Part shown: in pieces, positions 11,174 to 14,231 of the stretch | How the letters are laid out: the number at the start of each line of letters is the position of its first letter | Position numbering within the stretch: the stretch's first letter is position 1 | DNA from: Thermoplasmata archaeon | GTDB lineage: Archaea > Thermoplasmatota > E2 > DHVEG-1 | Direction: 5' to 3' | Length of the DNA: 64,000 nucleotides | NCBI GenBank assembly: GCA_014894395.1 | Contig: JADBLO010000039.1 | Coordinates: forward strand, 1-64,000 | The notes under the pieces: generated by a model | What the model was told of the DNA's origin: nothing | The model's input: the letters and a program-made list of their open reading frames with translations, nothing else | Databases searched by the model: none | Position numbers and translations under genes: made by a program

Positions 11174-11794
11174 ATGGCAGAGTTAAATTACAATAATCTA
11201 CTGAAACGAGTGCATAGCGCTACCGCAAAAGAACGCATCGATGATGATCGTTTTAAGGTACCAAAAGTTGATGTTTTTTATGAAGGAAATACGACAGTTC
11301 TGAAGAATTTTGATAAGATCATTGATGTTTTAAATCGTGATGCAGATCATTTTTTAAAATTTTTATTAGGGAGTGTTGGTACTGCTGGAGATATCTCAAG
11401 TGGTCGTGTGATTTTCCAGGGGAAAATCCCGATGAGGACAATACAAGATAGGCTCGATGAGTATGTCAATACCTATGTGATTTGTTCAGAATGCAACCGA
11501 CCTGATACCCACTTGGTGAAGAAGGACCGGACGCTGTTGATTCGCTGTGATGCGTGTGGTGCGTTTCGGTCGATCGGCTCTATGAAGAAGAGGAAAACCG
11601 TTGTGCCACGTGAGGTGTTTAAGGAAGGGGAAATTTACGAACTCACGATCAAAGATATTGGAAAACGAGGAGACGGCGTCGCGTTTTTTGATAAGTACGT
11701 CGTCTATATTCCTGGAGTAATTAAAGGCGCTACCGTGAAAGTGAAGATAGAAAAAATTTCTGGTACTGTTGCGTTCGGTCGTGTCACGCAATAA
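11174..11794 (+). CDS. Translation initiation factor aIF2 subunit beta with C-terminal TRAM-like domain
   Basis: LKRVHSATAKERIDDDRFKVPKVDVFYEGNTTVLKNF, zinc ribbon VICSECNRPDTHLVKKDRTLLIRCDACGAF, TRAM-like EGEIYELTIKDIGKRGDGVAFFDKYVVYIPGVIKG. Confidence 0.95.
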   Translation: MAELNYNNLLKRVHSATAKERIDDDRFKVPKVDVFYEGNTTVLKNFDKIIDVLNRDADHFLKFLLGSVGTAGDISSGRVIFQGKIPMRTIQDRLDEYVNTYVICSECNRPDTHLVKKDRTLLIRCDACGAFRSIGSMKKRKTVVPREVFKEGEIYELTIKDIGKRGDGVAFFDKYVVYIPGVIKGATVKVKIEKISGTVAFGRVTQ

Positions 11795-11983: not shown

Positions 11984-12106
11984 TTATATAAACACAAGGA
12001 CGTATTCGTTTCTACGTTTGTCAGACAAATGATGTCGTTTGGCACTTGTCCGACGTACGTGTGACGTACGATCGACATAAAAATGACGTCTTTCTGACAG
12101 ACACGA
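11984..12106 (+). promoter_or_regulatory. Promoter/leader of the RHH gene with phased GAC repeats and a palindrome
   Basis: TATA-like attatata at about 11984-11990; palindrome TTTGTC-A-GACAAA at 12017-12029; GAC at 12052, 12063, 12074, 12085 and 12096 (11-bp spacing). Confidence 0.6.
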
Positions 12107-12123
12107 AGAATGTGAGGAGAACT

Positions 12124-12351
12124 ATGGAAAACGACCGCATCACAATCCGATTACCTCAAATCGATCTCAGACAAATCGACCTTTTAATTCGACTTGGCGA
12201 ATTTTCAACACGATCTGAGGTATTACGACATGCGGTAAAAGAATATATCGAAAATCATACAACCCGTATTCTTGCAAAAGCCGACAAATTCAAGAAGATA
12301 CAAGAATTGGAAGCTGCGGTCGCCGCTATAGAACCTTACATGAAAAAATAA
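12124..12351 (+). CDS. Ribbon-helix-helix (CopG-type) regulator, CdrS-like
   Basis: RITIRLPQIDLRQIDLLIRLGEFSTRSEVLRHAVKEYIENH is a typical RHH; SD-like gtgaggag before the ATG; immediately upstream of ftsZ. Confidence 0.85.
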   Translation: MENDRITIRLPQIDLRQIDLLIRLGEFSTRSEVLRHAVKEYIENHTTRILAKADKFKKIQELEAAVAAIEPYMKK

Positions 12352-12391
12352 AATCAATGTAAAAGCAGGGGATGGGATGCACCCCTTTAGT

Positions 12392-12418
12392 GAAGGCCGT
12401 CCCAAGAGGACGGCCTTC
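12392..12418 (+). promoter_or_regulatory. Perfect RNA hairpin between the RHH gene and ftsZ
   Basis: GAAGGCCGTCC-CAAGA-GGACGGCCTTC, 11-bp perfect stem; preceded by a weaker AGGGG...CCCCT hairpin (12367-12386). Confidence 0.8.
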
Positions 12419-12447
12419 CCAACTACCAGAATAGGAGGAACAAAAAA

Positions 12448-13572
12448 ATGGCCGAAAATAAAATGCAGTCCTTTGTTGAGGCTGCGATAGAAAATAAGGT
12501 AAGTGAGGAAAGCAAGCAGAAGATTGATGACGGACTCTTTGGTGCTGCACGCATTGTTATTGTTGGTTGTGGAGGTGCCGGTGGGAACACAATCACCCGA
12601 CTCCACAAATTAGGCGTAAAAGGAGCAGAGACCATAGCCATCAACACCGATAAAATTGCACTTGATCTTGTCGATGCTGATAAAAAACTTCTCATCGGAA
12701 AAAACCTGACACGAGGACTCGGTGCAGGAGGGTTCCCCGAGATGGGTGAGCGTGCTGCACGAGAATCAAGCAGGGAACTTGAAGAAATGATGCAAGGTGC
12801 TGATCTTGTCTTTGTCTGTGCTGGTATGGGTGGTGGTACAGGTACCGGTGCTGCACCAGTCGTCGCAGAGATTGCAAAGAAACTCGGGGCTATTGTCACC
12901 TGTATGGTTTCTACTCCATTCAATGTAGAGCGAGCTAGGTTGGTCAAAGCAGATGAAGGGCTTGATAAACTGCGTGTCACCGCAGACAGCACGGTTGTGC
13001 TTGATAATAACCGATTACTTGAATTTGTCCCAAACCTGCCGATTAATCAAGCTTTCTCCGTGATGGATCAACTGGTTGCAGAAACGGTGAAGGGAATTTC
13101 TGAGACAATCTCGGTTCCCTCGTTAATCAACCTGGACTTTGCTGATATGAAAGCTGTCATGGATTCTGGTGGTCTCTCCGTTATGCTCTGGGGAGAAGCA
13201 GACGAGGATGCAGGAGTCGACACCATTGTGAAAGAAGCGTTGAACCACCCGCTCCTCAATGTCGATTACCATGGCGCACACAGCGCACTGGTTCACATTA
13301 CCGGCGGCCCGAACATGAGCTTGAAATACGTCCAAGACGTTGCCAAGGCACTCACCGAGGATATGGATTGTTACTCCAATGTTATCCTTGGAGCACGTGT
13401 GGACCCAGCTTTTGAAGGGAAATGCAGAGTGCTGGCAATCATGACTGGTGTACAATCACCGAATCTGCTGAGTTCTCGACCTGAGCGGCGCACAAATCCG
13501 ACCGCGCCCATGATCCCGGTACGAAGAGTCATGACAAACCCCAAGGTCGGAAACATCGACTTTGTGCGGTAA
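12448..13572 (+). CDS. ftsZ: Cell division protein FtsZ
   Basis: [17 protein letters not shown], tubulin signature [21 protein letters not shown] aggagg upstream of ATG. Confidence 0.97.
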
Positions 13573-13583
13573 AAACAAATAGA

Positions 13584-13618
13584 AAGCTACACGAGTAGCT
13601 TCTCTTTTCATTTTTTTT
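13584..13618 (+). terminator. Hairpin plus poly-T 3' end of ftsZ
   Basis: AAGCTAC-ACGA-GTAGCTT stem followed by T-rich tract ttcttttcattttttttaatttattttttt; convergent with the response regulator gene. Confidence 0.6.
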
Positions 13619-13982
13619 AATTTATTTTTTTAATGTTTTCAATAAGCTCTTTTATATCAAATGGTTTTGCAATATAATCATGGACGTAAGGTTCGAGACC
13701 TTTCATCTTGTGATGGCGATAGGTGCCGATCGCCGTGATGACGATGACATTAACGTTTTTTTGGAGGCCTCTTTTTACTATTTCTTTGATAGTTGCCCAT
13801 CCGTCCATCTGTGGCATCATGAGATCAATAAGAAGAATCCCGGTGAAACCTTTTTCAAGGAGTTCGAGACATTCGACCCCGTTTTCGACGCTCCAGACTT
13901 CGTATCCTTCGTGTTCAAAAATGTTTTTTACAGAGGTGCGAACATCGGGGTCATCGTCGACAATCAGAATATTTTTCCTCAT
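13617..13982 (-). CDS. CheY-like response regulator receiver protein
   Basis: NILIVDDDPDVRTSVKNIFEHEGYEV, ILLIDLMMPQMDGW, VIVITAIG, YIAKPFD; receiver domain only. Confidence 0.92.
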   Translation of the reverse strand: MRKNILIVDDDPDVRTSVKNIFEHEGYEVWSVENGVECLELLEKGFTGILLIDLMMPQMDGWATIKEIVKRGLQKNVNVIVITAIGTYRHHKMKGLEPYVHDYIAKPFDIKELIENIKKIN

Positions 13983-14157: not shown

Positions 14158-14231
14158 GGGCCTATGAGGTAGTCTGGATATCCTTCCGGCCTTCGGAGCC
14201 GGATACTGGGGTTCAAATCCCCATAGGTCCG
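14158..14231 (+). tRNA. tRNA-Arg (anticodon TCG)
   Basis: Cloverleaf: acceptor GGGCCTA/TAGGTCC, D arm AGG...CCT, anticodon stem CCGGC-CTTCGGA-GCCGG, T arm GGGGTTCAAATCCCC; CCA not encoded; no intron. Confidence 0.92.

Follow-up and report, generated by a model that had tools for sequence, protein, structure and literature searches.

RHH proteins such as MetJ, omega and CopG act on tandem operators composed of short pseudo-palindromic half-sites at a fixed spacing. Arc and AmrZ have half-sites separated by 5 bp, and AmrZ represses its own gene (PMC3325190). In archaea the closest described system is that of the Halobacteria. CdrS acts as an activator of ftsZ2 in Halobacterium, where the cdrS-ftsZ2 promoter is bound by another RHH protein, CdrL, which is reported to be restricted to Halobacteria (PMC7439475). 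In Haloferax 15 of 18 CdrS sites are located 41–110 nt upstream of start sites, including that of ftsZ1, and CdrS can activate (PMC8406309). A word search of the two CdrS papers for autoregulation returned no mention (PMC7439475, PMC8406309).

Here we analyzed a stretch of 64,000 nt (the window) from a Thermoplasmata archaeon with a genome of 2.7 Mb, whose nearest named relatives are Candidatus Thermoplasmatota MAGs, e.g. SM1-50 and SG8-52-3. As in the haloarchaeal CdrS-FtsZ2 locus, a small RHH gene (12124–12351, + strand, 75 aa) is positioned directly upstream of ftsZ (12448–13572, + strand; Pfam Tubulin and FtsZ_C, and TIGR00065 above cut-off), together covering 12124–13572, and a second ftsZ copy is found elsewhere in the genome (G000:C89). 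The arrangement recurs at a distance, as ftsZ adjoins the RHH gene in 14 of 20 distant loci. The protein scores above the cut-offs of both Pfam RHH_8 and RHH_1 (PF17723, 35.5 bits with cut-off 25.4; PF01402, 31.8 bits with cut-off 20.5), and shows a distant sequence match to NikR and to CopG/Arc/MetJ structures. We call it CdrS-like because its best NCBIfam match is CdrS (NF058555, E 1.2e-8), yet the 34.9 bits are far below the cut-off of 100 for that model, and unlike haloarchaeal CdrS it does not belong to the equivalog NF058555. Residues R5, T7 and R9 are invariant (alignment A1), and a monomer model (pLDDT 83) has helices at 12–23 and 30–73, with the strand forming only in the dimer. Just upstream of the operon, 11174–11794 (+ strand) encodes a 206-aa fusion protein of an aIF2-beta-like domain and a TRAM domain, the latter C-terminal. 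Downstream, a stand-alone response-regulator receiver domain (13617–13982, − strand) is convergent with ftsZ, with a tRNA at 14158–14231.

On balance we consider it probable that the DNA in front of ATG 12124 is the composite regulatory leader of an RHH-ftsZ (cdrS-ftsZ-like) operon, in which an RHH operator at the transcription start, phased 11-bp sites and a 5'-UTR hairpin are combined. Three features of this leader were computed directly: a palindrome at a defined position, a conserved 11-bp phasing, and the co-evolution of two complementary arms. A limited search of the open-licence literature gave no published description of the palindrome, the array or the hairpin.

The palindrome, TTTGTCAGACAAA (12017–12029, listed without strand), has the core GTCNGAC and is, from its conservation in leaders, a predicted operator at the transcription start. 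Of 68 leaders across Ca. Thermoplasmatota, most of them of RHH genes adjoining ftsZ, 66 had the core within 130 bp before the gene, and it thus reaches from genus to class and phylum; the two bases on either side (TT/AA) were 83–95% conserved. In the two leaders without it, one belongs to an RHH paralog not adjoining ftsZ (L158) and the other to a gene with a probably wrong start assignment (L152). More generally, the palindrome was absent before RHH paralogs not adjoining ftsZ. In 19 genomes of the class the composite pattern TTTGTCWGACAAA plus GATGNC was found a single time each, always before the RHH gene, and the reversed-pattern control gave 0 matches. A single phylum-level match of the composite pattern (G093) falls over reading frames, not before an RHH gene, and was taken as chance.

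The TATA box of the operon (TTATATAAA, 11984–11992, + strand) was read from the sequence, and both this element and ATG 12124 are where the sequence-only reading had placed them. Measured from the start of the TATA box, the GTC of the palindrome mostly follows at 27–35 nt in the family of the window and at 22–27 nt in class-level relatives. In archaeal promoters the distance between TATA box and start puts transcription initiation at or near the palindrome, which therefore lies at, or within a few nucleotides of, the predicted start site. The two flanks of the palindrome did not co-vary symmetrically beyond what the columns led to expect. A search for a wider regulon, using TTGTCNGACAA with one mismatch, showed no enrichment in the genome of the window (89 matches vs. 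112 control matches), so that adjacency is the one tie between the palindrome and the RHH protein.

The genome also has a mobile element with an integrase and a methylase, in which at least three TTGTCNGACAA-like palindromes occur (L088:1820–1880, G000:C1). These are situated between a TATA-like element and a minus-strand ParB-like reading frame, a promoter-like position, and the element may use the host operator or carry its own regulator. It can also be noted that the core region at 12020–12054 reads as 7-bp steps (in relatives GTCAGAC AAATGAT GTCGTTT GTCGTTT GTTTGAC), reminiscent of the heptads in omega-type RHH operators.

Downstream of the palindrome is the array that had been picked out from the letters of the window, with GAC at 12052, 12063, 12074, 12085 and 12096; on reading, these coordinates and the five 11-mers were exact. 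The array (12052–12106, + strand) is defined by shuffles, autocorrelation and alignment, and as it lies downstream of the TATA box it is probably inside the 5' UTR. None of 20,000 dinucleotide shuffles of the 112-bp leader produced a run of five GACs at period 11, and none of 3,000 shuffles a run of five of any trinucleotide at any period between 7 and 20. Within the 64-kb window no other run of five is made by a trinucleotide recurring at period 10 or 11. The test of conservation that had been proposed was also passed, since the 11-bp phasing is kept in the leaders of relatives, other genera included. A motif-free autocorrelation of the sequence after the core in 33 non-redundant leaders gave z-values of 12.4 and 10.2 for lags 11 and 22 (12.1 and 10.7, respectively, when the genus of the window was left out), with a deficit of self-similarity at lags 10 and 12. 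In the leader alignment whole units are gained or lost (L012, +11 bp; L025, L028 and L030, −11 bp). That the motif is short and was spotted by eye in 64 kb of sequence is the argument for chance without function, but the shuffles and the phasing in other genera leave a negligible probability for that explanation.

The unit consensus is roughly NTGAYRTANNN in the family of the window. A unit of about 6 bp (GAYRTM) plus a 5-bp spacer makes 11 bp, and the array therefore fits the published spacing of RHH half-sites in tandem operators of the Arc/AmrZ type, where the linker is 5 bp (PMC3325190). As a genome-wide search pattern, (GAYRTN6)x3 was rejected as unspecific, giving many matches outside the leader and control matches too. 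No array was found at ftsZ1 of the same genome. The GAC array is thus one part of a larger control region and not its most conserved piece. As a full account of the region it falls short, given that the upstream palindrome TTTGTCNGACAAA is the likeliest operator and is conserved far beyond the array.

The same stretch might instead be coding, with an in-frame upstream TTG at 12046 lengthening the RHH protein, and the frame from 12046 to 12351 is indeed open. This is very improbable, as the leaders of relatives differ by 1-nt and 11-nt indels that a reading frame would not tolerate, and both ATG 12124 and the Shine-Dalgarno-like sequence GTGAGGAG (12112–12119, + strand; nearly invariant in the family, alignment A2) are conserved. 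A leader peptide is ruled out by the indels.

The array also has a counterpart in the predicted RNA. RNAalifold, swap tests and folding energy define a predicted 5'-UTR hairpin at 12016–12102 (+ strand), with helices 12016–12022/12096–12102, 12031–12039/12082–12090, 12046–12048/12073–12075 and 12052–12059/12065–12072, where GACs 1–2 are at the tip and GACs 3–5 in the 3' arm. The folding energy compared with shuffles was z −3.4 for the leader of the window and on average −2.7 over 33 leaders. When arms were swapped between genomes in all 33 leaders, own arms gave −24.7 and swapped arms −20.6 kcal/mol (z −7.3), and the effect was retained within the same family (25 leaders, z −4.2, p 5e-5). These z-values and those of the autocorrelation overstate significance, as the leaders are related and several tests were picked after viewing the data; the genomes compared include MAGs, and start sites are predicted. 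The promoter and coding swap controls were flat, and so was the direct-repeat control in most sets; in class-level relatives the antiparallel swap reached z −8.2 and the direct-repeat control z −2.1. By segment, the signal came from S1–U1 (z −4.5) and the tip (z −4.3), was weak for S2–U2 (−1.5), and was mostly near zero for non-cognate pairs.

No consensus pairs were found by RNAalifold family-wide on the MAFFT alignments A2 and A3. Given a nearly invariant 5' arm and a family-wide MAFFT alignment that is not structural, we relied on the swap tests and on an alignment of the same genus. In 8 same-genus leaders RNAalifold predicted 27 pairs, 4 of them with double changes, and 92.6% of cells were paired, a value matched by 0 of 500 shuffles and falling below 50% when the partner was slid. 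In class-level leaders the hairpin is kept with an unrelated stem sequence, at energies of mostly z −2 to −7, and of z −2.9 to −7.0 in L140–L149. In Rfam 15 only the tRNA reached the gathering threshold, and the leader had no credible match at E ≤ 5.

These findings bear on whether the leader acts as DNA, as RNA or as both. If it were an array of RHH sites only, the complementary arms would be a by-product of inverted half-sites, with GTC on the left and GAC on the right. The exact 11-bp phasing with its whole-unit indels agrees with this, as do the palindromic unit GAYRTC at a spacing of the RHH type (PMC3325190), the tandem duplication of the core palindrome GTCNGAC at 10–11 bp spacing in three distant relatives (L042, L050 and L154), and the GTCNGAC array in the promoter-like position of the mobile element. 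However, the arms covary as complements, mainly at cognate positions and beyond the shared motif, and such covariation is not required of a pure DNA-site array. Further, a long hairpin of different sequence is kept in the class-level relatives, and the direct-repeat swap control is flat in most sets. We therefore regard the exclusively DNA-based explanation as rather unlikely, and phased DNA sites alone, as first read, probably do not suffice, since the array is also the tip and 3' arm of a predicted hairpin with covarying arms.

The opposite explanation is a 5'-UTR hairpin acting alone or bound by protein, in which the 11-nt repeat would reflect one turn of A-form RNA, about 11 bp, or a contact made repeatedly by a protein. 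The palindrome would then form just the hairpin's 5' end or serve as a promoter element. This explanation is favored by the arm-swap tests and covariation and by the location of the hairpin between the predicted start and the Shine-Dalgarno sequence in nearly all relatives. On the other hand, conservation extends over the whole palindrome, and yet in several relatives (L141–L143) its TTTGTC half contributes little to the hairpin. Further, GTCs that pair in the 5' arm are in the family mostly spaced by 14 nt and not by 11, and the class-level hairpin persists without an 11-nt repeat. RNA as the sole level of action is, in our view, somewhat less plausible again than DNA alone. It is doubtful, more so than either of these, that the leader is read twice by one and the same RHH regulator or partner, as an 11-bp phased operator in double-stranded DNA and as an RNA hairpin repeating GAC/GUC, with control of both cdrS-ftsZ transcription and mRNA across the phylum.

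We thus return to the composite leader. The 13-bp palindrome at the predicted start would most likely serve as operator for the RHH protein whose gene follows, and RHH dimers bound there may block or modulate initiation, i.e. act in negative autoregulation, as repression is the simplest outcome at a start site. In the family of the window the operator would be extended through the leader by neighboring 11-bp sites, with the spacing expected for adjacent RHH dimers (half-site of about 6 bp and 5-bp linker). Once transcribed, the leader is predicted to fold into a long hairpin ending about 9 nt before the Shine-Dalgarno sequence, and this hairpin may determine how well the mRNA is translated or how stable it is. 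The claim that a cis-regulatory array is tied to the RHH-ftsZ operon stands, with RHH next to ftsZ, CdrS as best match and the phasing conserved. It was incomplete, as it missed the more conserved palindrome at 12017–12029 and the hairpin.

Compared with the haloarchaeal system, the palindrome is here at the operon's own predicted start, whereas Haloferax CdrS sites are mostly upstream of the starts of other genes, including ftsZ1. A start-site repressor would likewise be unlike Haloferax CdrS, which binds mostly 41–110 nt upstream of start sites and can activate, and this counts against the composite reading. A leader hairpin is predicted here, and none is mentioned for the CdrS-FtsZ2 locus in the sections available to us. 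The resemblance to Arc/AmrZ operators lies in short pseudo-palindromic half-sites, fixed spacing and adjacent dimers (binding here being predicted), and the proposed autoregulation resembles that of AmrZ (PMC3325190). What sets the array apart from those operators is its position downstream of the predicted start, its size of four to six units and its inclusion in a covarying RNA hairpin. With structured 5'-UTR leaders in Rfam the hairpin shares its location between start and Shine-Dalgarno sequence and its covarying pairs, but it matches no family, its stem sequence is unrelated between families and it has a fixed palindrome in front.

A second conserved RNA element was identified between the RHH gene and ftsZ (12366–12431, + strand) by pattern search and covariation. 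It consists of GGGATGGGATGC, a variable covarying stem and CTACCAG, and matches no Rfam family. Of 100 relatives, 39 carried exactly one copy of the element, with 0 in the control. Its cells were paired to 94.9%, and double-changed cells numbered 20 vs. 4.8 expected (0 of 500 shuffles). Class-level relatives carry reduced forms that retain GGGATGGGATGC and CTACCAGCC. A covariance model of the element also finds weaker core copies at other loci. In the genome of the window these are at G000:C68:4791–4832 and G000:C61:41054–41086 (L178 and L179), and similar loci (L180–L189, L191) were seen. The outside copies sit within the stems GGAAGGA...TCCTTCC and GGCTGG...CCAGCC, often several per genome, and in some genomes have a GAPDH-like or indolepyruvate oxidoreductase-like gene nearby. 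They look like an undescribed small RNA family.

CdrL, the known direct cdrS-ftsZ2 regulator in Halobacterium, is reported to be absent from archaea outside the Halobacteria. For the control of FtsZ-based division genes there, a phylum-wide candidate operator at the predicted start of the RHH-ftsZ operon is now in hand, and the co-evolving leader hairpin and the second RNA element just before ftsZ are added as candidates. All of these can be tested with the 75-residue protein and short DNA or RNA.
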